A DNA stretch of 21,814 nucleotides, from positions 1-21,814 of the forward strand of contig DCFC01000054.1 of the NCBI GenBank assembly GCA_002314325.1. Direction: 5' to 3'. The translations under genes were made by a program, and so were the position numbers. Positions 3,330 through 21,814 of this stretch are shown here, piece after piece. Below the pieces are notes generated by a model, which was not told where the DNA came from, did not search any database, and saw nothing but the letters and a program-made list of their open reading frames with translations. The stretch's first letter is position 1; every line of letters starts with the position of its first letter. This stretch comes from Megamonas hypermegale. GTDB lineage: Bacteria > Bacillota > Negativicutes > Selenomonadales > Selenomonadaceae.

Positions 3330-3377
3330 GAGCGCAATCATGATTTAATTTTATTTCATGACTGCGCTCTTTTTTTA
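3330..3377 (+). terminator. Terminator after the transferase gene
   Basis: GAGCGCA (3330-3336) pairs with TGCGCTC (3363-3369). An inner CATGA/TCATG pairing adds to the stem, and a run of eight T residues follows. Confidence 0.88.
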
Positions 3378-3405: not shown

Positions 3406-3529
3406 CTGCATGAAGATAAAATTCCAGTCGGTAACCGGCAGTATAATACTTTATATTCATTCGACGTTGACACTTAACCTCATTAAATATAAAGTATTAT
3501 ACTGCTTTGAAAAATCAACTGGCACAATA
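3406..3529 (+). repeat. Palindromic intergenic element, copy A
   Basis: First of six related elements. The stem GCAGTATAATACTTTATATT (3438-3457) pairs perfectly over 20 bp with 3486-3505 around a 28-nt loop (3458-3485). The right outer arm ends in ACTGGCACAA, the family's terminal repeat. The left outer arm has drifted and its boundary is approximate. The stem differs from copy B by an exchanged base pair (ACTT/AAGT against AGTT/AACT), so pairing is kept. The loop contains TTGACACTTAACCTC. Confidence 0.85.
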
Positions 3530-3697
3530 AGCTTAAAACATCATTTTTTACATTTATTTTGCAGATTTTTGCCTGCTTTTTACAAACGGCGGCGCTTCTT
3601 TACAATTTTTTTGTGTACATATTACAAAATCCCGGTAGAGTGGACACGGGAAAATTGGTTAAATATATATTGTTGAATTCAGTTATTATTTAATCCG
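3530..3697. other. AT-rich spacer between repeat copies A and B
   Basis: No gene is seen here. A short TCCCG...CGGGA inverted pair lies near 3630-3651. The transporter operon's promoter should be here or in copy B, but no well-spaced -35/-10 pair stands out. Confidence 0.5.
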
Positions 3698-3817
3698 TTA
3701 TGCTGGTAAAAAAGAGCCTTTAAGCCAGCAGTATAATAGTTTATATTCGTTCGATGTTGTCACTTAACCTCACTAAATATAAACTATTATACTGCTTTGA
3801 GAAATCAACCAGCACAA
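3698..3817 (+). repeat. Palindromic intergenic element, copy B
   Basis: A full-length 120-bp copy. Outer inverted repeat TTATGCTGGT (3698-3707) against ACCAGCACAA (3808-3817). Stem GCAGTATAATAGTTTATATT (3728-3747) is perfectly complementary to 3776-3795, extended by one A-T pair. The 28-nt loop is at 3748-3775. It ends 39 bp before the ATPase start, so it would be in or near the leader of the transporter mRNA. Confidence 0.9.
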
Positions 3818-3856
3818 TAGGTATTTATCCGTAAAATAAAAGAAGAGGTTGAAAAG

Positions 3857-4639
3857 ATGCTTGAACTGAAAAAAATACGCAAGTCTTATGATAACGTAGA
3901 AGTTTTGAAAAACATTGATTTGACAATCGAAAAGGGTGAAATCGTGTCCATTCTCGGCCCGTCCGGCTGCGGCAAGACGACGCTGTTGAACCTGATTTTG
4001 GGTCTTACGAATGTAACGGGCGGCCATATTGTCTTTGACGGCGAGGATATCACGCATATGCCGATGGAAAAACGCGGTTTCAATATCGTATTCCAGGATT
4101 ATGCACTGTTCCCGAACTTAAACGTTTATGAAAATATCGTTTACGGGCTGAAAAACAAACCGAATATCTCCACGCCGCAGGAAGTGCAGGATTTAATCAA
4201 TCTGCTCGGTCTCGGCGAACATTTGAACAAAAATATCGAAGAACTGTCCGGCGGTCAGAAACAGAGAACGGCGCTTGCCAGAACGCTCGTCATGAAGCCG
4301 CGTATTCTGCTCCTCGACGAACCGCTATCGGCGCTCGACGGTGTCATTAAAGAGTCAATTAAGCAGAAAATTAAACAGATTGCCCGCGATTTCAAACTCA
4401 CGACAATCATCGTTACGCATGACCCGGAAGAAGCACTGACGCTTTCCGATAAGGTTTTAATCGTAAATAAAGGCACAATCGCTCAGTTCGGCAGACCGGA
4501 AGAAATCATCAAGAAACCGGCTGATGATTTTGTGCGCAAATTTATCTTAAAACAGCTGGAAATCAAGCGCAACAATATTATGGAACTGTTCTGGGACGGC
4601 AATGCTTCTGCCGCTGAAAATTATCTTCAGGTGGGTTGA
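3857..4639 (+). CDS. phnT: Phosphonate (AEP)-type ABC transporter ATP-binding protein
   Basis: The cytoplasmic ATPase of an importer, 260 aa. Walker A is GPSGCGKT at 34-41, the Q-loop Gln80, the signature LSGGQ at 130-134, Walker B ILLLDE at 150-155 and the H-loop His188 in VTHDPEEA. It belongs to the polyamine/iron/AEP branch of ABC ATPases. Members of the PhnT/FbpC/PotA type usually carry a C-terminal TOBE-like regulatory domain and run to about 350 aa; this one stops about 100 residues earlier, so that domain appears to be missing. The stop codon overlaps the permease start region (TGATGATGA), showing translational coupling. AEP as substrate is inferred from phnW and phnX downstream; an Fe(III) importer of the FbpABC kind is the main alternative on sequence alone. 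Confidence 0.85.
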   Translation: MLELKKIRKSYDNVEVLKNIDLTIEKGEIVSILGPSGCGKTTLLNLILGLTNVTGGHIVFDGEDITHMPMEKRGFNIVFQDYALFPNLNVYENIVYGLKNKPNISTPQEVQDLINLLGLGEHLNKNIEELSGGQKQRTALARTLVMKPRILLLDEPLSALDGVIKESIKQKIKQIARDFKLTTIIVTHDPEEALTLSDKVLIVNKGTIAQFGRPEEIIKKPADDFVRKFILKQLEIKRNNIMELFWDGNASAAENYLQVG

Positions 4640-4641
4640 TG

Positions 4642-6318
4642 ATGAGTACATTACTTAAAGGACGAGAATTAAAAGCTATTTTTATAGCTGTTTTAGCTAT
4701 ATTCGCTGCATTTTTAGCCCTGCCGTTCGTGGAAATCATCTATCAGGCGTTTTCCACCGGCGGCGGCTTCGGTTTTGACCATTTCGCCACAATGCTCAGT
4801 GAACGCAATTTCGCAACGGCGTTCGGCAACAGTATCACAATCGCCTCCGTCAGTGCGCTTATCAGCACTATTTTGGCTTTTATCCTTGCCTACACTATTC
4901 ATTACACGAATTTGAACGGCAAATTGAAAAAAGCCATTCAGGTTCTGGCACTGGCGCCGATGTTTCTGCCGACGATTACATACGGTTTCGCCATTATCTA
5001 TTCGCTGGGCAAACAGGGCTTTCTAACAAAAAATCTCGGTATCAATATTGATATCTACGGTTTTAACGGCCTTTTAATCGGCTATCTGATTTATACGCTG
5101 CCGATTGCTTTCCTGCTCATCTTCAATGCTATGAAATATATCGACAAGAAATTCATGATTGTATCGAAAGTTATGGGCGACAGCAATCTGAAAACATTTT
5201 TGCAGACGATAATCCGTCCGCTGCTCGGCACGATGGCGGCATCGTTTGTGCAGTGTTTCTTTCTGTGCTTCACTGATTACGGTATTCCGGCTTCCGTCGG
5301 CGGTCAGTATCAGGTGATTGCAACCGTATTGTACGAACAGATGATGGGCAGTATTCCGGATTTCAACCGCGGCGCCGTTGTCGCTATCGTAATGCTTCTG
5401 CCTTCCATCATCAGTATTGCTCTTTTATGCTATCTGCAAAAATACAATGTACGCTACAGCAAAATTTCGCAGATTGAACTCAAAGTCAATAAACTGCGCG
5501 ACGCTTTCTGGGGCGCATTGTCCGCGATAATCCTCGTCATGGTTCTGTCCATGTTCATCGTAATCTTCCTCATGCCGTTCATTCAGGAATGGCCGTACCG
5601 CATGGCGTTCACGACGGAGCACATCTCCTCCATTCTCAGCGACTCCGCCATCATCGACGTTTATCTGAACTCGCTGTTTGTTGCGGCGCTGACGGCCGTT
5701 ATCGGTCTGTTCGTTTCCTACGGCGCGGCGCTGATTACGGCGCGAAGCTCGCTGGCGGGCAGCAGCAAATTCACGGTGAATTCCATCGCCCTCATCACAA
5801 ACACCATTCCGGGCATGGTAATCGGTATCGCCTATCTCATGCTCTTTTCCGGCAGCACGCTGCAAAATACGTTTGCGCTTATCATCATCTGCAACGTCGT
5901 GCATTTCTTCTCCACACCGTATCTGATGCTGAAAAGCTCACTGGAAAAACTCAACAAATCATGGGAAAATACGGCGCTTTTAATGGGCGACAGCTGGTTT
6001 AAAACGCTGCGCCGCATTATCACTCCGAATATAAAAACAACGATACTGGAAGTTCTCGGTTATTATTTCGTAAACGCTATGGTAACAATCAGCGCCGTCA
6101 TCTTCATCGCCGGTGCGCAGACTATGGTCATCACGGCGAAAATCAAGGAACTGCAGTATTTCGGCAAATTCAATGAAATTTTCGTACTGTCCATCCTCAT
6201 CTTGCTGACGAACCTCGTCGTTAAGGGGCTTTTGGGACTGCTGGCGAAAAAACGAGTAACGGTTAAAAAAGAAAATAACAATAAAATCACAAAAACTAAA
6301 GGGGAATTAGCAGTATGA
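4642..6318 (+). CDS. phnU: Fused double-domain ABC permease, AEP-type
   Basis: A 558-aa inner-membrane permease made of two fused binding-protein-dependent transport domains. Each half has about six membrane helices and one EAA-like ATPase-docking loop, recognisable as VMGDSNLKTFLQTIIRP near residue 178 and LMGDSWFKTLRRIITP near 447. The fusion is typical of FbpB-like and PhnU2-like permeases, so one polypeptide supplies both halves of the channel. I chose ATG 4642 because AGGTGGG ends 6 bp upstream; ATG 4639 and TTG 4636 are in frame but sit too close to that site. It overlaps the binding-protein gene by ATGA at 6315-6318, so all three transporter genes form one coupled unit. Confidence 0.85.
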   Translation: MSTLLKGRELKAIFIAVLAIFAAFLALPFVEIIYQAFSTGGGFGFDHFATMLSERNFATAFGNSITIASVSALISTILAFILAYTIHYTNLNGKLKKAIQVLALAPMFLPTITYGFAIIYSLGKQGFLTKNLGINIDIYGFNGLLIGYLIYTLPIAFLLIFNAMKYIDKKFMIVSKVMGDSNLKTFLQTIIRPLLGTMAASFVQCFFLCFTDYGIPASVGGQYQVIATVLYEQMMGSIPDFNRGAVVAIVMLLPSIISIALLCYLQKYNVRYSKISQIELKVNKLRDAFWGALSAIILVMVLSMFIVIFLMPFIQEWPYRMAFTTEHISSILSDSAIIDVYLNSLFVAALTAVIGLFVSYGAALITARSSLAGSSKFTVNSIALITNTIPGMVIGIAYLMLFSGSTLQNTFALIIICNVVHFFSTPYLMLKSSLEKLNKSWENTALLMGDSWFKTLRRIITPNIKTTILEVLGYYFVNAMVTISAVIFIAGAQTMVITAKIKELQYFGKFNEIFVLSILILLTNLVVKGLLGLLAKKRVTVKKENNNKITKTKGELAV

Positions 6319-7340
6319 AAAAGAGAAAAATTTTAACGGCATTAATGGCCGGTGCGGCGCTGTGCGCTTCCATGCTGTTCGGCGGCTGCGGCGGCTCCGA
6401 CAGTGCGTCCACTTCCAGCGACGACGGCAAAGTTGTCATTTATTCCAACGCTGACGACGAAGCAGTCGACGCGATGAAAAAAGCACTCGACAACAACGGT
6501 TTCAAAGACAAATACATCATGCAGACATTCGGTACGTCCGAGCTCGGCGGCAAGCTGATGCTTGAAGGCAAAAATATCGAAGCCGATGTTGTAACGATGA
6601 GCACGTTCTATCTCGACAGTGCGCAGGAAAAAAATAAAATGTTCGCTGATTTAACTTTCGACTACAAACCGCTCGGCGAAAAAGTAAGCTTCTATGCACC
6701 GATTACTTCGCAGGAAGGTACAATCATCGTAAATACGGAAAAAATGAAAGAAGCCAACCTGCCGATGCCTGCTTCCTTAAAAGATTTGGCCAACCCGATT
6801 TACAAAGACCAGATTTCCGTAACGGACGTGAAGGCATCCTCGACGGCTTGGCTCTTAATTCAGGGTCTTGTAAGCTCCTATGGTGAAGAAGAAGCAAAAC
6901 AGATTTTAGCAGGTATCTATAAAAATGCCGGCCCGCATATCGAAAACTCCGGTTCCGCACCGCTGAAAAAAGTACGCGCCGGTGAAGTGGCAATCGGTTT
7001 CGGTCTCCGTCAGCAGGCTGTAGCTGACAAACAGGAAGGTCTGCCTATCGACTATGTAGACCCGGCGGAAGGCAACTTCTCCTTGCAGGAAGCAGCTGCC
7101 GTTATTGATAAGGGCGACAAAACGAAAGCAGATGCTGCCAAAATGGTTGAATGCATCATTAAAAACGGCAGAGCTGACCTCTTGAAGTCCTACCCGAACC
7201 CGATTTACGAAGGTGAAACTTCCGACTCCGTGTTCAAATCCGCCAATCCGAAAACTTTCGCTGAAAAATTAAGCGTTGACTTACTCAAAAAACATCAGGA
7301 ACTGTCTGAAGCTGCCAAACAGATTGCTTCCGGCAACTGA
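6315..7340 (+). CDS. phnS: AEP-type ABC transporter substrate-binding lipoprotein
   Basis: A 341-aa extracytoplasmic solute receptor. The N-terminus has a lipoprotein signal peptide with lipobox LFGGC and acylation at Cys25, followed by a Ser/Asp-rich linker. The mature part starts VVIYSNADDEAVDAMKKA, the opening of the iron/AEP-type class of periplasmic binding proteins. Its length fits AEP-binding proteins of the PhnS2 kind. The start overlaps the permease stop by ATGA, with AAAGGGGAA upstream. phnW and phnX downstream argue for 2-aminoethylphosphonate as ligand. Because Fe(III)-binding proteins share this fold, the substrate call rests on context. Confidence 0.83.
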   Translation: MKKRKILTALMAGAALCASMLFGGCGGSDSASTSSDDGKVVIYSNADDEAVDAMKKALDNNGFKDKYIMQTFGTSELGGKLMLEGKNIEADVVTMSTFYLDSAQEKNKMFADLTFDYKPLGEKVSFYAPITSQEGTIIVNTEKMKEANLPMPASLKDLANPIYKDQISVTDVKASSTAWLLIQGLVSSYGEEEAKQILAGIYKNAGPHIENSGSAPLKKVRAGEVAIGFGLRQQAVADKQEGLPIDYVDPAEGNFSLQEAAAVIDKGDKTKADAAKMVECIIKNGRADLLKSYPNPIYEGETSDSVFKSANPKTFAEKLSVDLLKKHQELSEAAKQIASGN

Positions 7341-7362
7341 TAATTGCTTTGTAAACAATATG

Positions 7363-7483
7363 TTGTGCCAGTAAAACATCGAGCCTTCATGACAGCGGTA
7401 TAATAGTTTATATTCGTTCGATGTTGTCACTTAACTTCACTAAATATAAACTATTATACCGCTTTGGCAATCAAGCAGCACAA
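7363..7483 (+). repeat. Palindromic intergenic element, copy C
   Basis: Outer ends TTGTGCCAGT (7363-7372) and GCAGCACAA (7475-7483). Stem GCGGTATAATAGTTTATATT (7395-7414) is perfectly complementary to 7443-7462. Compared with copy B, a T-A stem pair has become C-G on both arms. The left arm holds AACATCGA and the loop holds its complement TCGATGTT, so an alternative pairing is possible. It begins 22 bp after the binding-protein stop codon. Confidence 0.9.
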
Positions 7484-7493
7484 CAGGTTAAAT

Positions 7494-7546
7494 AAAAAAG
7501 GTCTAGACAATATCTCCATCATATTGCCATAGGCCTCTTTTTAAGG
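7494..7546 (+). terminator. Terminator or attenuator between transporter and phnW
   Basis: AAAAAGG...CCTCTTTTT arms with an inner CAATAT/ATATTG stem and a T-tail at about 7538-7542. It follows copy C directly and lies just ahead of phnW, so it may end the transporter transcript or act as an attenuator of phnW. Confidence 0.7.
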
Positions 7547-7586
7547 ATTAAAGATAATTTTATTTAAGTTTAAGAGGAGAATTTGC

Positions 7587-8681
7587 ATGAAAAACTACAA
7601 ATTACTGACACCGGGTCCGCTCACTACGACTGATACGGTCAAACAGCAGATGATGTTCGACCACTGCACATGGGACGACGATTATAAGAAAATCACGCTG
7701 GAAATCATCGACGAATTATTAAATCTCGCTCATGTCGATAAAGAAAAATACACGGCTGTATTAATGCAGGGCAGCGGCACATTCGGCGTGGAAGCGGTGC
7801 TCACTTCCGTAATCGGCAAAGACGACTGCCTGTTAATCTGCGCCAACGGCGCTTACGGCAAACGCATGGCTGAAATCGCCAAATACGCCGGTATCGACTA
7901 TCATCTCTATCTGGAAAACTACGACAAAGTTCCGTCTGCACAGAAAGTTGAAGAACTTTTACAGGAATATCCAGAAATCACGCACGTTTCCATGGTGCAC
8001 AGCGAAACGACCTCCGGTATCCTGAACGATATCGCTTCCGTCGCTAAAGTCGTAAAAGCGCAGGGTAAGACGTTCATTGTTGATGCTATGTCCAGCTTCG
8101 GCGGCGTGGATATCGAAGTGGAAAAACTCGGTATTGATTTCATCATCAGCAGCGCCAACAAATGTATTCAGGGCGTGCCGGGCTTCTCCTTCATCATCTG
8201 CGACCGTGAAAAACTGCTCGCAAGCCGCGGCAAAGCGAGAAGTCTGTCGCTCGATATTCTCGCACAGTGGGAAACGATGAGCAAGGACGGCAAATGGCGC
8301 TTCACTTCCCCGACGCACGTTGTTCTCGCTTTTGCTCAGGCGCTCAAAGAACTGAAAGCTGAAGGCGGCATCCCTGCGCGCCATAAACGCTACTGCGAAA
8401 ACAACCGCATTCTCATCGAAGAAATGGCTAAACTCGGCATTAAACCATATATCAGCGGCACATATCAGGGACCGATTATCACGACGTTCTTCTATCCGGA
8501 AAACGCTGATTTCTCCTTCGGCGAAATGTATCAGTACATCAAAGACAGAGGCTACGCCATCTATCCGGGCAAAGTAACGGACGCTGACACTTTCCGCATC
8601 GGCAATATCGGCGAAATCTATCCGGAAGATATGTATAAACTGGCGCAAATCATGACTGATTTCTTAAACAGAAAAAAATAA
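7587..8681 (+). CDS. phnW: 2-aminoethylphosphonate:pyruvate transaminase
   Basis: A PLP-dependent class V aminotransferase of 364 aa, the normal length. It converts AEP plus pyruvate to phosphonoacetaldehyde plus alanine, the first step in AEP breakdown, in the cytoplasm. The N-terminal LLTPGPLTTTDTVK is characteristic. Other motifs are QGSGTFGVEA (61-70), MVHSETTSGILNDI (136-149), VDAMSSFGG with the PLP-pyridine Asp166, and the Schiff-base Lys192 in SSANKCIQG. A conserved Arg sits in DTFRIGNIGE near the C-terminus. AGAGGAG stands about 8 bp before the ATG. phnX lies just downstream and completes the pathway. Confidence 0.96.
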   Translation: MKNYKLLTPGPLTTTDTVKQQMMFDHCTWDDDYKKITLEIIDELLNLAHVDKEKYTAVLMQGSGTFGVEAVLTSVIGKDDCLLICANGAYGKRMAEIAKYAGIDYHLYLENYDKVPSAQKVEELLQEYPEITHVSMVHSETTSGILNDIASVAKVVKAQGKTFIVDAMSSFGGVDIEVEKLGIDFIISSANKCIQGVPGFSFIICDREKLLASRGKARSLSLDILAQWETMSKDGKWRFTSPTHVVLAFAQALKELKAEGGIPARHKRYCENNRILIEEMAKLGIKPYISGTYQGPIITTFFYPENADFSFGEMYQYIKDRGYAIYPGKVTDADTFRIGNIGEIYPEDMYKLAQIMTDFLNRKK

Positions 8682-8694
8682 CAACCGATATATA

Positions 8695-8812
8695 TTGTGC
8701 TGGCAAAACATCCAGCCATATCAGCAGAATAATACTTTATATTCGTTCGATGTTGTCACTTAACCTCACTAAATATAAAATATTATCCTGCTTGAAAAAT
8801 TAATAAACACAA
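8695..8812 (+). repeat. Palindromic intergenic element, copy D
   Basis: Outer ends TTGTGCTGGC (8695-8704) and AAACACAA (8805-8812). Stem GCAGAATAATACTTTATATT (8724-8743) faces 8772-8791 with two mismatches (A-C and C-A), so this is the most decayed stem of the six. The 28-nt loop at 8744-8771 is identical to copy B's. It fills most of the gap between phnW and phnX. Confidence 0.87.
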
Positions 8813-8838
8813 TAATTAACAGATTGGGGTATAAATAA

Positions 8839-9606
8839 ATGAAATACGAAGGAATTATTTTCGATTGGGCAGGCACTACGGTGGATTACGGCTGCATGGC
8901 ACCGGTTAAGGCATTTGACGAAGCATTTCGGGCATACGGTATCGAACCGACAATGGAAGAAATCAGAAAACCGATGGGTATGCTGAAAATCGACCATGTT
9001 CGCACTATGCTCGGCATGGAGCGCATCAATAAATTATGGCAGGAAAAATACGGCCGTGCCTGGACGGAAGATGACGTAAAAGCTATTTACGAACTCAGCG
9101 AAAAGAAAATCTTTGAAGTTCTCGATAAATACACGGATATTAAACCGCACGTTCTGGAAACAATCATCGAAATCCGTAAAAAAGGCCTCAAAATCGGCTC
9201 TACCACCGGCTACACCAGCGACATGATGGAAATCGTAACGGACAGAGCCAAACAGCAGGGCTACACGCCGGATTTCTGGATTAGCCCGGATAAAGTAAAC
9301 AGCAAAGGCCGTCCGTATCCGTACATGATTTTCCGCAATATGGAAGCACTAAATTTCGCTGATGTGCGCAAAGTGCTGAAAGTCGGCGATACGGTAGCCG
9401 ATATCAAAGAAGGCTTGAACGCCGGCATGGAAACGGTCGGCATTATCGAAGGCAGCTCCATCATGGGTCTTACACAGGATGAATACGAAGCACTGCCGGA
9501 AATGGAACGCGAAAAAATCGACTTCAAAGTCGTTTCCACATATCAGGATGCCGGCGCTACCTATATTATCAGAGATATCCGTGCTCTCTTAGATTTATTA
9601 AGATAA
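8839..9606 (+). CDS. phnX: Phosphonoacetaldehyde hydrolase (phosphonatase)
   Basis: A HAD-superfamily enzyme of 255 aa that cleaves the C-P bond of phosphonoacetaldehyde to acetaldehyde and phosphate. HAD motif I is FDWAGTTVD with nucleophile Asp9. Lys50 in GMLK is the Schiff-base lysine expected for phosphonatase in the cap domain, which separates it from ordinary HAD phosphatases. Motif II is STTGYTS, the conserved lysine region is SKGRPYPYM, and motif III is VGDTVADIKEG with Asp184 and Asp188. The ribosome site is modest (TTGGGG about 10 bp upstream). It is separated from phnW by repeat copy D rather than coupled to it, and ends at a strong bidirectional terminator. Confidence 0.96.
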   Translation: MKYEGIIFDWAGTTVDYGCMAPVKAFDEAFRAYGIEPTMEEIRKPMGMLKIDHVRTMLGMERINKLWQEKYGRAWTEDDVKAIYELSEKKIFEVLDKYTDIKPHVLETIIEIRKKGLKIGSTTGYTSDMMEIVTDRAKQQGYTPDFWISPDKVNSKGRPYPYMIFRNMEALNFADVRKVLKVGDTVADIKEGLNAGMETVGIIEGSSIMGLTQDEYEALPEMEREKIDFKVVSTYQDAGATYIIRDIRALLDLLR

Positions 9607-9617
9607 TACACTCACGC

Positions 9618-9657
9618 AAAAAAGGCTTGAAACCGTAAATGATTTCAAGCCTTTTTT
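9618..9657. terminator. Bidirectional terminator between phnX and carbonic anhydrase
   Basis: AAAAAAGGCTTGAAA pairs perfectly with TTTCAAGCCTTTTTT. The symmetric A/T runs let it serve both converging transcription units. Confidence 0.93.
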
Positions 9658-9672
9658 CTTTTCCGTATATCC

Positions 9673-10224
9673 TTATTTATAACCGTTAGCGACGATATCC
9701 ACTTTGCCCGTATCAGGATGGAAAATCAATCCGTGCACCGGAATGGTTTCCGCAATGAGCGGATTTTTGCGGATTTTATCCACAGCGTCCTGCACATTTT
9801 CGACCGGATGATGGAAATTATCCACCCAGTGAATGAGTTCATCTTTTACATTGTCAATGGCGCTCTGTTCTATGCCCATATCGAGCATGGCTTTTATCAG
9901 TTCGTCCGAGGTGGCATGAGCCATGCCGCACTCATGATGACCTATGACCATGATTTCCTTTACGCCAAGTTCGTAAATGCAGACGAGCAGACTGCGGATA
10001 ATATCGCTAAAATCGCTTGTAATACTGTTGCCTGCCGTTTTAATGATTTTGGCTTCGCCGCGGCCGATACCCAGTGCAGGTTCAAGAAAATCGACCAGAC
10101 GGGTATCCATGCAGGTAATGATTGCCAGCTGGCGTTGCGGCAGTTTACTTATGCCTATAAAATCCGCCGGCAGATGAGATACGAATTTTTCATTGGCCTG
10201 CGTTACTTCATCCAGTAATGTCAT
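9673..10224 (-). CDS. Beta-class carbonic anhydrase
   Basis: A 183-aa zinc enzyme interconverting CO2 and bicarbonate in the cytoplasm. Zinc ligands are placed by motif: Cys38 in TCMDTRL (the CxDxR motif, Asp40 and Arg42) and His96 with Cys99 in GHHECGM. AAGGAGA lies about 7 bp before the ATG. It is the last gene of the - strand group, 17 bp after the epimerase-like gene, and faces phnX tail to tail. The short length and lack of extra domains fit the clade often found in Firmicutes. The physiological role (bicarbonate supply) is family knowledge. Confidence 0.92.
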   Translation of the reverse strand: MTLLDEVTQANEKFVSHLPADFIGISKLPQRQLAIITCMDTRLVDFLEPALGIGRGEAKIIKTAGNSITSDFSDIIRSLLVCIYELGVKEIMVIGHHECGMAHATSDELIKAMLDMGIEQSAIDNVKDELIHWVDNFHHPVENVQDAVDKIRKNPLIAETIPVHGLIFHPDTGKVDIVANGYK

Positions 10225-10241
10225 AATAGTCTCCTTTGATA

Positions 10242-11126
10242 TCAGCCGATAGTGATTGTATAATCAGCTTCAAATTTTTCATTTGCACGCAGGTCAATGA
10301 TACCTTCTTTTACGGAAATTTCGCGTTTCTGCGTGCTGTCGGCAAGACCGTACCACGGTTCAATACAGATGAACGGCGCATTGGACGGTTTCGTCCAGAT
10401 ACCGAGATACGGAAAACCTTTGAAATTCACTTTTACGAAATGATTATTGGCAGGATTTCTAAATTTTACTTCTTCAGAAAACAGATTTTTAAATACGAGT
10501 GCGTCTTCTAAAAACAGATTGTGATTTAAACGCAGAACTTTGCCATAAACGAGATTTACAGGGATAACGCGTCCGTCGAATAAACCGGCGGAATTTAAAC
10601 GATGTGAAGACAGCGGACTTTGTTCCGTCTGCTCAAATTCGATTTCATGTTCATCGAATTTTCCTTCATTGCCGATTGGGCAATTGAAGGCAGGATGAGC
10701 ACCGATGGAGAAGAACATTTCCTTGCGGTCATCAAGATTGTAAACTTTCCATGCCACTTTTACGGTAAAATGTTCTATGGTATAGATTATCTGCAGTCTG
10801 AATTTGAAAGGATAATTTTTTAATGTATCCTCTGTATAGGAAAGTTCGTATGTTAAACTGCTGTCCGTCTGTTCAATCAGAGTAAAGTCCATATCACGGG
10901 CAAAGCCGTGTCCCGTCATGTTGTAAACGGAGCCGTCATATTCGTATTGTCCGTTTTTAAGTTTGCCTACAAATGGGAACAGTACCGGAGCATGTCTCTG
11001 CCAGTATCTGGCATCAGCCTGCCAAATGTATTCATCGCCTGTTTCTTTCAGGACGAGACTGTGGATTTCGGCACCGTGAGTGTCTACACTGAGACGGATG
11101 ACGTCATTTTCTAAAGTAGTCAACAT
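10242..11126 (-). CDS. Aldose 1-epimerase (galactose mutarotase-like) family protein
   Basis: A 294-aa protein of the GalM-like beta-sandwich fold, most like the LacX/YeaD subgroup. Such enzymes interconvert alpha and beta anomers of sugars or sugar phosphates. Two histidines in the expected places are visible: His73 in TGHGFARD and His144 in GAHPAFNCP. A candidate catalytic Glu lies in ICIEPWYG near the C-terminus. The frame extends to a GTG at 11135, but AAGAGG overlaps that codon. The ATG at 11126 is 8 bp from AGAGG and is the better start. Repeat copy E lies between this gene and the upstream GerMN gene. No sugar operon accompanies it, so the substrate is unknown. Confidence 0.85.
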   Translation of the reverse strand: MLTTLENDVIRLSVDTHGAEIHSLVLKETGDEYIWQADARYWQRHAPVLFPFVGKLKNGQYEYDGSVYNMTGHGFARDMDFTLIEQTDSSLTYELSYTEDTLKNYPFKFRLQIIYTIEHFTVKVAWKVYNLDDRKEMFFSIGAHPAFNCPIGNEGKFDEHEIEFEQTEQSPLSSHRLNSAGLFDGRVIPVNLVYGKVLRLNHNLFLEDALVFKNLFSEEVKFRNPANNHFVKVNFKGFPYLGIWTKPSNAPFICIEPWYGLADSTQKREISVKEGIIDLRANEKFEADYTITIG

Positions 11127-11151
11127 ATAAAACACCTCTTATTATTATCTA

Positions 11152-11272
11152 TTGTGCTAGTTGATTTTCTAAAGCAGTATAATAGTTTATATTTAGTAAA
11201 GTTAAATGATAACAGGTAGCGGATATAAACTATTATACTGCTGGCTATAGGCTCAATGCTTTACCAGCACAA
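11152..11272 (-). repeat. Palindromic intergenic element, copy E
   Basis: Reverse-oriented relative to A-D, hence aligned with its - strand neighbours. Outer ends TTGTGCTAGT (11152-11161) and ACCAGCACAA (11263-11272). The 19-bp perfect stem is 11174-11192 against 11223-11241. The 30-nt loop (11193-11222) is diverged, but its reverse complement still matches the family (TGTTATCATTTAACTTTACT). The element starts 8 bp after the GerMN gene's stop codon. Confidence 0.87.
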
Positions 11273-11279
11273 GTTATAT

Positions 11280-11864
11280 TTACAGTAAATCATTCATGCG
11301 GCTTACCGGCTCGGTCAAATCGAGATGACCGCCCAGGATATCAAGCGGCTGACCTTCCAATGTGAACCGGACCGCTTTTATTTCCGGAAATTCCGTTAAT
11401 GTATCGACGATTGACCCGACGAGCATGATTTCACCCGTAGAACCGCCGGTGAAATTCGTCTGAAACTCCTTGCTGAAGTCGACAGTCGCCGTATCATCTT
11501 TCACCGTTACATTTAAAACTTTTGCGCCCTTCGGCATAATGCCGATGCCTTCCGCTTCATTGGCAGGTCCTGCAATCAGCGCATTTACCGCCTGTGCATA
11601 TTTATCGCTGCTGTCTGTAATCTGTCTTTTAGCGGCGATTAGTTTTTCCGCATTGGCATCAGGGAAATAAACAGTAATTTCCGTCTGTGTCTTAGCGGCG
11701 CTTACCGTTTTATCCTCGTTTGGCGCTGCGGCCATTTCCGTCTGCGCCGTTTCACTCGGCTTTTGCGCTCTGTCGCCGGTGGAAGCATTCTGATTGTCGC
11801 AGCCGGCAACCATGAGTAAAATGATGATGGAAAGAATAGTTAGTAGACATCTGATTGGTTTCAT
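11280..11864 (-). CDS. GerMN-domain lipoprotein
   Basis: A 194-aa predicted lipoprotein with signal peptide and lipobox LMVAGC (Cys22), then a low-complexity linker. One GerMN domain spans about 67-185: ITVYFPDANAEKLI, ALIAGPANEAEGIGIMPKG, VDFSKEF and AVRFTLEGQ. GerMN domains are known from the spore-germination protein GerM and from envelope proteins of non-spore-formers; their function is poorly defined. It lies 32 bp downstream of an N-acetylmuramoyl-alanine amidase on the same strand, a pairing that fits a cell-wall role. GGAAGTGA precedes the ATG. Confidence 0.88.
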   Translation of the reverse strand: MKPIRCLLTILSIIILLMVAGCDNQNASTGDRAQKPSETAQTEMAAAPNEDKTVSAAKTQTEITVYFPDANAEKLIAAKRQITDSSDKYAQAVNALIAGPANEAEGIGIMPKGAKVLNVTVKDDTATVDFSKEFQTNFTGGSTGEIMLVGSIVDTLTEFPEIKAVRFTLEGQPLDILGGHLDLTEPVSRMNDLL

Positions 11865-11896
11865 ATAGACTCACTTCCTAAATATGACTAAATATA

Positions 11897-12952
11897 TTAG
11901 CTGTTGAAATATTCGCTGATACCGCGGGCAATGGCCTCAGCAAACTGTTTCTGCCACTGCGGGTCGCTGAGCATTGCCTCTTCATTGTAGTTGGTGATGA
12001 ATGCCGTTTCAACGAGAACGGCCGGCATGGCGGAGCGTTTCAGAACGTAGAAATTGGCGGTTGAAGCGCCGCGGTCGCGCAGTTTGCTTGTATTTACCAT
12101 TTCGTTTTGAATAGCGGCGGCGAGCCGTCTACCGTTATAGCTGCCGGCATAGTAGAACGTTTCCGTGCCGTTAGCGGCTGAACTGGAAAAAGCATTGCAG
12201 TGAATGCTGACGAATATATCCGAGTTCACGTTGTTGCCGACATTGACACGCGCCTGGAGTTCATTTGCCGCCGAAGCGTTCGGTCCGTATACGTCCGTAT
12301 CGCCGGTGCGCGTCATCACTACGTTCGCCCCGTTCCATGTCAGAATATCCGCCAGATTTTGCGAAATGGCAAGCGTGGCTTCCTTTTCCGTATAACCGCT
12401 CGGCCCGATTGCTCCCGTATCGGAGCCGCCGTGTCCCGGGTCGATAGTAATCGTTTTGCCGCTCAAATCGCCAATATCTATATTGTTGCCGTTATCTTTC
12501 ACTTTTTTCAGAGCAGCACCGGCAAAAGTGATATCAATGGCGATACCGTCCGTTTTATGCGTATCGTCTTTTTCCAAAGCGTAAATACGATAGCTGCTCT
12601 TTATTAATTCGCCTTTTGTATACAATTTTCCTTGTATATAATCATTATCCATCTCCTGCAGAAAAATTTTTCTGCCGATTTCACCGTCGAGATTTTCCTG
12701 ACGCGGAATGGAGGATATTCGAGCATCCTTCATTCGGAAAATCAGCTGGCTTGGATTGTTCGGGTTGATGTTAGCGGAAAACTCCTCTACCGGGCGATTG
12801 GTGGCGATTTCCACATGCAGGTACTGCACGCCGTGCTCAGTGCTTTCCACCGTATAGGAGACATTTTTTATCGTGGCTGTCTTGGCGAAGGAAATGCCCG
12901 GGACAGCCAGCAGCATTACCATTAATGAAAATATAAACAGTTTTTTCAGCAA
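11897..12952 (-). CDS. N-acetylmuramoyl-L-alanine amidase (AMIN + Amidase_3)
   Basis: An exported peptidoglycan hydrolase, 351 aa from the chosen start, that cuts the bond between N-acetylmuramic acid and the stem peptide. A signal peptide (LLAVPGISFA) is followed by an AMIN-type targeting domain (about 25-150) and a C-terminal zinc-dependent Amidase_3 domain (about 165-350). Zinc and catalytic motifs are DPGHGG, the Glu in GYTEKEATL, SIHCN and the terminal Glu in LVETAFITN. The frame could begin at GTG 12961, but AGAGG abuts that codon. TTG 12952 has proper 8-bp spacing, the same layout as the epimerase gene. The ribosome site overlaps the stop of the DUF3006 gene, so the two are coupled. 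Confidence 0.92.
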   Translation of the reverse strand: MLKKLFIFSLMVMLLAVPGISFAKTATIKNVSYTVESTEHGVQYLHVEIATNRPVEEFSANINPNNPSQLIFRMKDARISSIPRQENLDGEIGRKIFLQEMDNDYIQGKLYTKGELIKSSYRIYALEKDDTHKTDGIAIDITFAGAALKKVKDNGNNIDIGDLSGKTITIDPGHGGSDTGAIGPSGYTEKEATLAISQNLADILTWNGANVVMTRTGDTDVYGPNASAANELQARVNVGNNVNSDIFVSIHCNAFSSSAANGTETFYYAGSYNGRRLAAAIQNEMVNTSKLRDRGASTANFYVLKRSAMPAVLVETAFITNYNEEAMLSDPQWQKQFAEAIARGISEYFNS

Positions 12953-12963
12953 AAAGGACACCT

Positions 12964-13173
12964 CTATTTTTTCAGTGAATTCAACAGACTGGCTACTTCT
13001 TCCTTAGCTTTCTGCGTAGCCTCGTCATCGTATTTTATATTGATAGTAACATAATCGCCTTCTTTTAAATTTTTATCCAGCAGTCGGCGCGGAAAATTTA
13101 TTTTTATCTCCTCGTCGCCTGCAAGCAGTACGGCTTTGTCTTCTTCAAAGCGGTCAATTACGGCGTAAATCAT
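12964..13173 (-). CDS. DUF3006 family small protein
   Basis: A 69-aa protein matching the DUF3006 pattern. It starts MIYAVIDRFEEDKAVLL, then a short beta-rich body with INFPRRLLD and EGDYVTINI, then a charged helical tail. It has no signal peptide. AAGGAG stands upstream of the ATG, and the gene follows the MBL lipoprotein gene by only 3 bp. In many Firmicutes, DUF3006 genes sit next to ComEC-like MBL proteins. The function is unknown; the pairing suggests a shared process. Confidence 0.85.
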   Translation of the reverse strand: MIYAVIDRFEEDKAVLLAGDEEIKINFPRRLLDKNLKEGDYVTINIKYDDEATQKAKEEVASLLNSLKK

Positions 13174-13176
13174 AAT

Positions 13177-14049
13177 TTATTTCTCCTTTTGTATGGTGTA
13201 GTTGTCGCTGCCGTCAGTCAGAATGGTGACAGTCCCGTCTTTGTCGGTGCGGTAAACGTTCATATCGTATTTTTTATAACGGTCGAGCGTCTGCTTGTGC
13301 GGATGGCCGTATTCATTGTCTGCCGCCAGCGAAATAATGACATCTTTCGCCTTCACGGCTTTTAAGTAGCTGTCGCTGGAAGAAGTGCGGCTGCCGTGGT
13401 GCGGTGATTTCAAAACGTCGCTTTGCAGCTCATTGCCGTAACTTTTCGTCATGTTCTGCTCGGCTTCGCGCTCACTATCGCCGGTGAACAGCATCGTAAA
13501 ATCGTTGTAGCGGAGCTGACCAACGAGAGAATTATTGTTTAAATCATCATCGCTTTGCAGCATTTTTTCCGTCGGGCTGAACACCTTGAACGATACACCG
13601 CCGCCGAAATCAACACTGTCGCCCGCTTTTAACTGATGATAGGCGATATTTTGCTGTTTGATGTTCTTCAAATACGTCTGATACGTTTTCGTCGTCGTCG
13701 TATCGCCGTTGTCATATACTTCCTTAACTTTGAAATTCTTGAAAACGGCATATGCCCCGCCGATATGGTCGGCGTGCGGATGAGTTATTATCAGTTTGTC
13801 AATAGTCTTGATATCGCGCTCTTTCAGCAGTTTTACGAGCCGGTCGCGCTCATCGATATCGCCCGTGTCAATCATGACGATTTCATCTTTCGTATAGATA
13901 AGACTGGCATCGCCCTGCCCGATATCGAGCACTTCGATTTTGACCTCACCGCCGGACGTGGCAGCGGTTTTATCCGCCGCATCGTTTTTGGCACAGCCGG
14001 CGCAGACCATTGTTAAAATTATCAACATTAATAAAAAAATTTTTTTCAT
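13177..14049 (-). CDS. ComEC/Rec2-like MBL-fold lipoprotein
   Basis: A 290-aa metallo-beta-lactamase-fold hydrolase resembling the soluble C-terminal domain of ComEC, but standing alone behind a lipoprotein signal peptide (lipobox VCAGC). Motifs in order are EVLDIGQGDASLI, MIDTGD, the zinc motif THPHADHIGG, MLFTGDSE, and SPHHGSRTSS with a further histidine in EYGHPH. In ComEC this domain is proposed to degrade the non-transforming DNA strand. For the stand-alone secreted forms, extracellular nuclease or phosphodiesterase activity is only a guess. No channel domain is present. AAAGGA lies 8 bp before the ATG, and the gene heads a - strand operon with DUF3006, amidase and GerMN genes. Confidence 0.88.
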   Translation of the reverse strand: MKKIFLLMLIILTMVCAGCAKNDAADKTAATSGGEVKIEVLDIGQGDASLIYTKDEIVMIDTGDIDERDRLVKLLKERDIKTIDKLIITHPHADHIGGAYAVFKNFKVKEVYDNGDTTTTKTYQTYLKNIKQQNIAYHQLKAGDSVDFGGGVSFKVFSPTEKMLQSDDDLNNNSLVGQLRYNDFTMLFTGDSEREAEQNMTKSYGNELQSDVLKSPHHGSRTSSSDSYLKAVKAKDVIISLAADNEYGHPHKQTLDRYKKYDMNVYRTDKDGTVTILTDGSDNYTIQKEK

Positions 14050-14094
14050 GCTAGCATCCTTTCTTATTTAGCAAAAAATTTTCAGCTTGAATAG

Positions 14095-14138
14095 GAAAAA
14101 GTGTCCCTAATGCAAATTCTGTTTATGATAGGGACACT
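14095..14138 (-). terminator. Terminator of mazF
   Basis: AGTGTCCCTA (14100-14109) is perfectly complementary to 14129-14138. Read on the - strand the stem is followed by TTTTTCC, which suits the end of the mazF transcript. Confidence 0.82.
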
Positions 14139-14183
14139 ATAATTTTGTTAGTATTATATAAAATTTTTTATGTATAGACAATT

Positions 14184-14558
14184 TTAAAATTTAACTAATC
14201 CTAAACTAATCATCAATGCCTTGTTCACTTCCTGCATGTGGTGTTTGTCTAGCGTGGTTACCTTTTTACTGAGACGGGACTTGTCTATCGTTCGCAGCTG
14301 TTCAACGAGAACCATAGAGTCTCTTTCCAGATTACAGGATTTTGCAGGCAGGTCAACGTGTGTGGGCATATGTGTTTTTCCTAATTTAGCCGTGATAGCC
14401 GCCACGATAATCGTAGGGCTGTATTTGTTGCCAATATCGTTCTGCACAATCAGAACGGGACGCAGACCGCCTTGTTCCGAGCCGATTACAGGACTTAGAT
14501 TGGCATAATAAATGTCGCCACGCTTTACAATATCATTTCTTTTCAGCAGAATTACCAT
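14184..14558 (-). CDS. mazF: MazF/NdoA-type endoribonuclease toxin
   Basis: A 124-aa PemK/MazF-family toxin of the Bacillus NdoA (EndoA) type, a sequence-specific mRNA interferase. Recognisable stretches are VKRGDIYYANLSPVIGSEQG, RPVLIVQNDIGNKYSPT, VAAITAK, PTHVDLP and VLVEQLRTIDKSRLS. Compared with NdoA the N-terminus is about 9 residues longer. ATG 14558 has no good ribosome site and is the only canonical in-frame start in the region, so translation may be weak or begin at a rare codon. A CopG/EndoAI-type antitoxin normally sits directly upstream; here the 180 bp upstream hold no such ORF. In Bacillus the order acpS...alr-ndoAI-ndoA is known; here acpS and nnr are followed directly by mazF. 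Confidence 0.92.
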   Translation of the reverse strand: MVILLKRNDIVKRGDIYYANLSPVIGSEQGGLRPVLIVQNDIGNKYSPTIIVAAITAKLGKTHMPTHVDLPAKSCNLERDSMVLVEQLRTIDKSRLSKKVTTLDKHHMQEVNKALMISLGLVKF

Positions 14559-14670
14559 CGCAAGAAATTTATTTTCATAAATTTGCGCTCTTGCAGCCGG
14601 TTTCCAACTCCTTGTCTTTAAATAATAAGATAATTAACGCGACTTTGTAATCATCAATGAACATATGTCT

Positions 14671-14700
14671 ATTATAACATATATTTTACTTTTTTTTATA
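14671..14700 (-). promoter_or_regulatory. Candidate mazF promoter
   Basis: A perfect TATAAT on the - strand (14676-14671) with only a weak TATAAA-like -35 about 18 bp upstream. The leader of about 110 nt to the mazF ATG holds an AAGGAG (14613-14608) too far from that ATG to serve it. 14559-14741 otherwise contains no supported gene. Confidence 0.35.
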
Positions 14701-14741
14701 CTTATTTGAGAGACAAATTAGCAGTTATATTTTTATATTTG

Positions 14742-14862
14742 TTGTGCTAGTTAATTTCTCAAAGCAGTATAATAGTTTATATTTGTTCGATGTTGCCACT
14801 TAACCTCACTAAATATAAACTATTATACTGCCGGCTAAAGGCTCGATGTTTTACTAGCACAA
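14742..14862 (-). repeat. Palindromic intergenic element, copy F (loop inverted)
   Basis: Perfect outer inverted repeat TTGTGCTAGT (14742-14751) / ACTAGCACAA (14853-14862) and the longest perfect stem, 21 bp (14764-14784 against 14811-14831). The asymmetric arms are in - orientation: the right side reads GGCTCGATGTTTTACTAG, the reverse complement of copy C's left arm. The 26-nt loop (TTGCCACTTAACCTCACT) reads in + orientation like copies A-D. Arms and loop therefore disagree, unlike all other copies. It sits between nnr and mazF. Confidence 0.9.
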
Positions 14863-17770: not shown

Positions 17771-17947
17771 TTGACACTCCCATGTCTAAAGACAGGGGAT
17801 TCTTAAGAAGTTCGACCACAGTCAGTCGATTTTTATTCTTAAAGGGCTTGCCAACAGCCCTCTACACAGTTCCTCATATTTGAAGTTCTGCTTACTTAGT
17901 TATCGGGCATATATCCTCATAGCTAAAGCTAGAGGATATATGCCCGA
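17771..17947 (-). mobile_element. Small IS200/IS605-like remnant with solo omegaRNA-like right end
   Basis: Read on the - strand, this 180-bp stretch starts with a strong hairpin (17903-17947), passes through a GGGCTGTTGGCAAGCCC hairpin region, and finishes with GAATCCCC-type hairpin sequence and GGGAGTGTCAA, ending TCAA at 17774-17771. The end resembles the right end beside tnpB at 20721 (GAATCCCC...GGGGAGTACGTCAA). No transposase ORF fits inside. It looks like a non-autonomous (MITE-type) derivative that kept both ends and the scaffold. The exact left boundary is inferred. Confidence 0.65.
17903..17947. repeat. 16-bp perfect hairpin, probable IS605-type left-end stem
   Basis: CGGGCATATATCCTC (17904-17918) is perfectly complementary to 17932-17946, plus one flanking T-A pair, around a 13-nt loop. 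There is no T-run on either side, so it is not a rho-independent terminator. IS200/IS605 transposases recognise subterminal hairpins, which fits its place at the far end of the remnant. Confidence 0.7.
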
Positions 17948-20720: not shown

Positions 20721-20860
20721 TTGACGTACTCCCCAGTTAGGGGATTCTGGGATACTGACGAACCTTGCTATCAAATGACAGTCTTATGAGATCTCTCCTC
20801 AATGGACAACGCCCTGCCCATATTTATCGTTTAACGAGAGTAGAACATTCTCTCTCCTTC
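20721..20860 (-). ncRNA. IS200/IS605-type right end and probable TnpB omegaRNA
   Basis: Downstream of, and probably overlapping, the 3' end of tnpB. Read on the - strand the tract runs through GGGCAGGGCGTTG and GAATCCCC-TAACT-GGGG, a 5-nt-loop hairpin, and ends GTACGTCAA with TCAA at 20724-20721. This is the layout of IS605-family right ends, which encode omegaRNA scaffolds. The adjacent host DNA (20720 downwards, AAGTTATCATTATTC) would be the guide. The 5' boundary is a guess. Confidence 0.7.
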
Positions 20861-21814
20861 TTTCTTTATATTTATAGCGGCATTTAAATCTCTGTCGTGG
20901 TGTTTGCCGCATTTTGGACAAGTCCACTGCCTTATTCTCAGATCTTTGAGTTCTTTGTTTTGGTAGTCGCAATTACTGCACAGCTGACTTGACGGAAAGA
21001 ATTTTCCTACTTCAATAACGATGGAACCTGTCTTTTCTGCTTCATATTTCAATTTGTTTACAAAGTCGGCAAAACCTAAATCTGATATTTTTCTACCGAA
21101 GCGTTTCTGCATAGCTTTTAAATTCAAGTTTTCGATAGAGATTAAAGCGTATTTTTGGGCTAGATACTGTGCCGTTTTCCAATGAAAATCACGACGCATA
21201 TTTGTTACTTTTTTATGCAGTCTTGCTAAATTCAGTCTAGCTTTTTGACGATTGTTGGAAGATTTCTGTTTACGGGATAAATTGCGATTAGCTTTAGCGA
21301 TTAGTTTTGCATTTCGTTTAAAAAACAGCGGAGAAATAATATTTTTCCGTTCTGAACCTGTGAGAAATTTCTTCAGACCGAAGTCGAAACCGACGCTTTC
21401 ACCTGTTCTTGTTAAGACTTCATTTTCATTTGTTTCACAGGAAAAATACAAATAAATATCGCCTAAAGCATCACGCTTTATGGTTACTGTTTTTACTTTT
21501 CCGTCGATATCCCGTGATTTAAAATACCGGTATTTCTGATTGGCTATTCTAATAATGTTTCCGTCATACAGTTTCCAACCTGACGTTTTCAAAGTATACG
21601 ATTTATACTTGCGTACTTTCTTAAATGACGGCGGGGCTGAACGGATATTATGCTTCTGATTTCTGAAAAACAGCTTGTAGGCGCGGTCTATACGCTCAGT
21701 TATATTCTGCACCGCCTGTGAGCCAATTTCATTAAGATAGCTGAACTTTGTTAGTTTTTTCAGTTTAGTCAAGTGTCCCTGCAAAGTAAATTTGTGCAAT
21801 GATTTTTTAAATAA
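20831..21814 (-). CDS. tnpB: TnpB RNA-guided nuclease of an IS200/IS605-type element (5' end outside window)
   Basis: The C-terminal part of TnpB, at least 327 aa. The frame stays open through the right edge of the window; the TTG at 21799 is internal, because the residues before it (FKKS then LHKFTLQ) continue a normal TnpB sequence. The RuvC nuclease is complete: Asp in VGFDFGLKKF, Glu in ISIENLNLKAM and the final Asp in HDRDLNAAINI. The zinc finger with two CxxC pairs (CSNC, CPKC) lies in between. TnpB uses an omegaRNA made from the element's right end to cut DNA matching the insertion junction. No tnpA is visible; it may lie upstream beyond the window. The protein looks active as far as can be seen. 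Confidence 0.93.
   Translation of the reverse strand, partial: LFKKSLHKFTLQGHLTKLKKLTKFSYLNEIGSQAVQNITERIDRAYKLFFRNQKHNIRSAPPSFKKVRKYKSYTLKTSGWKLYDGNIIRIANQKYRYFKSRDIDGKVKTVTIKRDALGDIYLYFSCETNENEVLTRTGESVGFDFGLKKFLTGSERKNIISPLFFKRNAKLIAKANRNLSRKQKSSNNRQKARLNLARLHKKVTNMRRDFHWKTAQYLAQKYALISIENLNLKAMQKRFGRKISDLGFADFVNKLKYEAEKTGSIVIEVGKFFPSSQLCSNCDYQNKELKDLRIRQWTCPKCGKHHDRDLNAAINIKKEGERMFYSR

Follow-up and report, generated by a model that had tools for sequence, protein, structure and literature searches.

Short palindromic repeats have been described in several bacterial groups, and one review table covers seven such families, none of them from Negativicutes (PMC2229807); the main text of a 2024 review of MITEs uses no word beginning Negativicutes or Selenomonad (PMC10969869). 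The ERIC or IRU elements of enterobacteria are presented in the earlier review as palindromes of 127 bp that are co-transcribed in Yersinia and contain an open frame, and are tabulated with a 7-bp terminal inverted repeat (TIR), TA termini and a duplication (PMC2229807). The Correia or NEMIS elements of Neisseria measure about 105-155 bp and are credited with TIRs, stem-loop transcripts, promoter-like sequences and reported inversion (PMC2229807, PMC10969869), the TIR being given as 24 bp and the duplication as TA (PMC2229807). The RPEs of Rickettsia are listed as palindromes of 105-146 bp with a 12-bp TIR, an open frame and an uncertain duplication, and also lie in frame inside genes (PMC2229807). 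REP and REPIN sequences have a unit of 20-40 bp and are intergenic palindromes, recorded as lying mostly between unidirectional and convergent ORFs (PMC3733652).

The repeat analysed here occurs six times in the window, by which we mean the whole 21.8-kb stretch of DNA examined, and, judged from its sequence, it looks like an undescribed MITE-like palindromic family of Selenomonadaceae. It shares its build with ERIC, Correia/NEMIS and RPE elements, from all of which it is set apart by host class and tabulated TIR length. Unlike ERIC, it shows no regular duplication and belongs to another host class; unlike Correia/NEMIS elements it has TIR-like ends of about 10 bp and unequal arms, and the inversion seen in one copy involves the loop only; unlike RPEs, it is intergenic in all six copies. 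At about 120 bp the unit also exceeds that of REP and REPIN sequences, and assignment to these was rejected for want of a common tag (GTAG occurs only in copy E, CGTC only in copy A, and GGAG in none of the six). The first-pass annotation had allowed that the repeat might prove to be a known, described family. A search of Rfam with the window gave no match at the gathering threshold, and for the segment 3380-3850 searched by itself every match fell below threshold, the highest-scoring one being to a microRNA hairpin model (24 bits, where 100 are required); among the titles listed for open-access literature on Selenomonas, Negativicutes, Megamonas, Veillonella and palindromic MITEs, none dealt with it.

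Six copies of the repeat and their genomic setting

All six copies that had been annotated are present where they had been placed, as follows.

Copy A: 3406..3527, plus strand; core 3438-3505, right arm 3506-3527
Copy B: 3698..3817, plus strand; core 3728-3795; 39 bases upstream of the start codon (3857) of an ABC ATPase gene
Copy C: 7363..7483, plus strand; core 7395-7462; in the gap between a solute-binding-protein gene and a class-V aminotransferase (phnW-like) gene
Copy D: 8695..8812, plus strand; core 8724-8791; in the gap between the aminotransferase gene and a HAD hydrolase (phnX-like) gene
Copy E: 11152..11272, minus strand; core 11174-11241; neighbouring genes also on the minus strand
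Copy F: 14742..14862, minus strand by its arms (L to R, as its neighbours); core 14764-14831, which reads plus

The start of copy A (3406) is taken from the first-pass annotation, as the left end of this copy is not recognisable; copies B to F are 118-121 bp long. Searched with its filters switched off, a covariance model of the core (68 bp) found the six copies at 88.7-101.5 bits and, because the copies are palindromes, the same six on the opposite strand at 48.3-55 bits. The model was built from these copies, so its scores for them follow by construction, and the informative part is that no seventh copy appears: the next-best place in the window, with 18 bits (E 0.06), is a hairpin that has no relation to the repeat. 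The pattern CAYTTAACYTYAYTAAATATAA, derived from the copies and covering the loop and 3' stem, matches six times in the window and not once in 100 shuffles.

We chose 21 genes from the ORF list, 20 of which have a Pfam match; the remaining one is NnrD-like, with Pfam domains listed for its homologues. Among the best 120 of 7984 matches to the NnrD-like protein, the named relatives come from Propionispira, Massilibacillus, Anaerosinus, Mitsuokella and Selenomonas at 50-56% identity, and a search of 149 genomes of a Bacilli genome's phylum gave no close relative, the best-scoring match being 32% identical. The named relatives, together with the Megamonas hypermegale label on the best relative of the repeat (below), support placement in the Negativicutes. 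Bases outside the 21 genes make up 13.7% of the window and contain all six copies, in agreement with their annotation as intergenic. The copies sit in gaps between genes of the same direction, A and B together in one gap; since 11 of the 12 gaps of at least 60 bp are codirectional, only the orientation of the copies is informative, and not the type of gap. By their arms all six copies are oriented along transcription, copy A being judged from its right arm only, a bias with a two-sided p of about 0.03 if the copies are independent, with A and B sharing a gap.

In three copies (B, D and E) the distance to the following start codon is 16-39 bases, D lying 26 bases upstream of the HAD hydrolase gene and E 16 bases upstream of the listed start of an aldose epimerase-like gene; copy C is 103 bases upstream of the aminotransferase gene. 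The listed start of the epimerase-like gene is a GTG at 11135, and the true start may be an in-frame ATG nine bases on. The adjoining genes are diverse, with products assigned to ABC transport, aminotransferase, HAD hydrolase, aldose epimerase and PemK. The transporter, class-V aminotransferase and HAD hydrolase genes span 3857-9606, with copy B in front of them and copies C and D in gaps between them. This group presumably resembles a 2-aminoethylphosphonate operon; the names phnW and phnX are our own interpretation of matches to a class-V aminotransferase and a HAD hydrolase next to a transporter. The PemK/MazF-type gene lies at 14184-14558, and no antitoxin-like ORF stands beside it among ORFs of at least 70 aa.

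Build and orientation of the unit

The core is exactly 68 bp in length, with a 20-bp stem and a 28-nt loop except in F, where they measure 21 bp and 26 nt; these values fall within the 19-21 bp and 26-30 nt annotated at first pass. The G+C content of the core is 26-31%. On folding, the six copies give z values of -5.0 to -7.6, and for each copy none of 200 shuffles was as stable. Stem positions are paired in 97.5% of cells, a level reached by 1 of 500 shuffles, and the covariation score of the stem was reached by 6 of 500. Two stem pairs are altered on both sides, pair 3/66 in copy C (G-C for A-U) and pair 12/57 in copy A (C-G for G-C); as many two-sided changes arise in 32 of 500 shuffles, which makes this count weak evidence. 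Copy D has two mismatched stem pairs and a diverged right end, and in copy E the loop-closing pair is broken and the loop is the most diverged of the six. Differences per site amount to 0.070 in the stem versus 0.171 in the loop.

The arms are of unequal length, 29-32 nt on the left (B-F) versus 21-22 nt on the right (A-F). All-against-all scores divide them into two classes: class L is made up of the arms upstream of the core in B, C, D and E and the one downstream of it in F, and class R of the arms downstream of the core in A-E and the one upstream of it in F. The upstream arm of copy A falls in neither class and has no similarity to the other arms. Shuffled arms reach a score of 19 at the 99% level and 31 at most, so that an individual score of twenty-odd does not decide the matter; the strongest scores of the two F arms are 30-45 and 23-34, every one of them in the swapped class. 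The loop of F aligns with the other loops on the plus strand, and its arms read minus; the F loop is thus inverted relative to its arms. The minus-strand orientation of E, the inverted core of F and the degenerate left end of A are all additions to the first-pass annotation.

Common outer ends, claimed there for all copies, are found at 10 of the 12 ends as inverted motifs of the type TTGTGCTRGT. With at most one mismatch this motif occurs 10 times in the window, where 2.0 are expected, and every occurrence lies at an element end; the two ends left unmatched are the left end of A, which has no similarity, and the right end of D, which is more diverged. The last two bases to the left and first two to the right of the unit are CG/TA in B, TG/CA in C, TA/TA in D, TA/GT in E and TG/TG in F. 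TA thus flanks both sides in copy D only, and the side of the right arm reads YA in all six copies. The two-base match in D and F, with none in B, C and E, agrees with the earlier remark that no consistent target-site duplication is visible; target duplications of MITEs are reported to fade with age (PMC10969869).

In its length (118-121 bp in B-F, MITEs being shorter than 500 bp), its AT-richness, its stable stem-loop, its terminal inverted repeats and its lack of a transposase gene, the repeat resembles MITEs. The MITE-like reading proposed at first pass fits the build as judged from the DNA (size, TIR-like ends, an AT-rich palindromic core and intergenic sites), whereas its mobility is putative. 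No autonomous partner was found in the window, where the sole transposon-type gene, of the TnpB family, is separated from the closest end motif by about 6 kb. This gene (20831-21799) is 64% identical to one on a plasmid of Megamonas funiformis and has no relative in the viral contigs.

Relatives beyond the window

As one frame is open across the core, relatives were sought by protein search. An alignment of the six core translations, run against predicted proteins, retrieved 11 short ORFs of 306 candidates at E 0.1; a second query, to which eight of the first hits had been added, retrieved 16 of 2237 at E 1, with all 11 recurring and five new, so that eight of the 16 are found by construction. 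The E-values of these relatives go down to 5e-21. By eye, the 16 ORFs represent about 13 sites with different flanks, P0125, P0126 and P0128 sharing one and P0123 and P0127 another. The first-pass annotation had named confinement to the six sites as a finding that would count against a repeat family; these protein hits place relatives at some 13 further sites in other sequences.

The best relative is labelled Megamonas hypermegale, and this one partial protein is the sole basis of the link to Megamonas. The ORF with this label, P0121, contains one full translated core followed, by eye, by an apparent piece of a second unit. In P0134 the frame of the element is continuous with that of an ORF for which YacG is the best Pfam match (E 8e-5, under the curated cut-off), and in P0135 it is a longer reading frame that extends into the element. 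A left arm was recognised by eye in eight of the 16 relatives and a right arm in fourteen, in standard order throughout. The flipped order of F, present in one of six copies in the window, was found in none of the 16, in a protein search that sees only units with the frame open and whose query rows are mostly in standard order.

Searches of phages and plasmids gave no relative, either with blastn (nine weak matches at E 10, with E-values of 0.4-5, none in a Selenomonad) or with tblastn using P0121, and the viral contigs contained neither the repeat patterns nor relatives. They did contain one relative of the integrase of the window, a tyrosine integrase whose gene is flanked by 34-bp direct repeats at 170-203 and 1351-1384 that are 88% alike and att-like in arrangement; a tblastn search of phages with this integrase gave no pointer to a host. 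A scan of the genome collection with one exact pattern returned two stretches, and both were rejected as members: in L001 the pattern site, with 13.7 bits (E 0.4), ranks under a chance match elsewhere in the same stretch (17.1 bits), and L002 has no match to the core model. The pattern is strict, and its failure is therefore no proof of absence. One Megamonas plasmid had no credible core (best 12.1 bits), with the end motif occurring 8 times against 4.5 expected.

Origin of the repeat and alternative readings

We consider it probable that the repeat is an undescribed MITE-like family of Selenomonadaceae (Negativicutes), spread in trans, bearing a hairpin and shaped by template switching. The unit of about 120 bp consists of a left arm, a 20-bp stem, a 28-nt loop, the returning stem and a right arm, closed by inverted ends of the TTGTGCTRGT type, and a transposase recognising these ends probably acted on it in trans. 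Copies would persist in gaps between codirectional genes, where a transcript would carry the 20-bp hairpin; by analogy with NEMIS and ERIC, as these are reported, the hairpin could be cut by RNase III or could shield RNA ends (PMC2229807, PMC10969869).

The two-sided changes at stem pairs 3/66 and 12/57, taken with the inverted loop of F, suggest that the palindrome was most likely kept near-perfect, and the loop of F flipped, by a replicating polymerase that switched template from one stem arm to the other. Template switching between inverted repeats has been described as homogenising arms and inverting spacers, with 2-5 bases changed in the spacer inversions reported in yeast (PMC8604942, PMC8794818); its application to a loop of 28 nt is on that account an extrapolation.

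Much of the same evidence may be read in terms of selection on RNA. A cis-acting RNA or mRNA-processing element, in which a sense hairpin controls mRNA stability or ribosome access, would account for the reading of all six copies along their neighbour genes, for the short distances from B, D and E to start codons and for a stem that varies less than the loop and stays almost fully paired. We regard this as rather unlikely: the neighbour genes are unlike each other and the relatives have other flanks, pairing between loop and ribosome site is at the shuffled level in the five copies scored (0.08 for B, and 0.50, 0.62, 0.24 and 0.56), Rfam offers no match at the gathering threshold, and template switching can keep a stem paired without selection. 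A portable promoter whose direction is set by the loop, with TTGTCA, a 17-bp spacing and TAAACT lying across the loop and 3' stem and inversion redirecting it, has in its favour promoter-like sense matches at 9-10 of 12 positions in A-D, and Correia elements are reported to carry promoters and to be able to invert (PMC10969869). Antisense matches are equally good, however (best sense scores in A-F of 10, 9, 9, 10, 9 and 8 versus 10, 9, 10, 8, 9 and 9 antisense), the region is rich in such matches (46 versus 24.5 in shuffles), and the flipped arrangement is absent, by eye, from the 16 relatives; we hold the promoter reading to be very improbable. By the standards of site-specific invertases, a spacer of 28 nt is short. 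A self-flipping palindrome family, in which the arms fix the orientation of the unit and template switching toggles the 28-nt loop, so that each copy would be a slow switch ahead of its gene with two states of hairpin and promoter-like sequence, strikes us as a long shot.

It is scarcely credible that the repeat acts through translation, as a short peptide or an in-frame protein insert. In all six copies the core has the same one frame free of stops, and the 16 relatives turned up as predicted proteins, but the relatives were sought in that open frame, and their frame is thus no evidence for coding. Of 24 substitutions relative to copy B, 5 are synonymous in the open frame (0.21 versus a neutral 0.22), as compared with 4 of 24 and 10 of 24 in the other frames, the latter of which has stop codons, and the frames of the arms are out of register with that of the core.

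Should the MITE-like family be dense in Selenomonadaceae genomes, it may influence the expression of operons and could be used to tell strains apart. Its arms and its loop can be oriented separately, which also makes the repeat a natural system for measuring the frequency with which template switching at replication flips a bacterial hairpin loop.

A role as an intrinsic terminator was rejected, the window containing 10 terminator-like sites versus 13.5 in shuffles. Two of these sites touch copies of the repeat, one over the core of C and the other at the left edge of A, both on the minus strand. Ahead of copy A, a hairpin followed by a T run at 3332-3375, after a sulfatase-family gene, has by eye the form of a terminator. 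A further perfect inverted repeat of 16 bp with a 13-nt loop, outside the repeat family, lies at 17903-17947 in the gap between the ZnuA-like and FabK-like genes.
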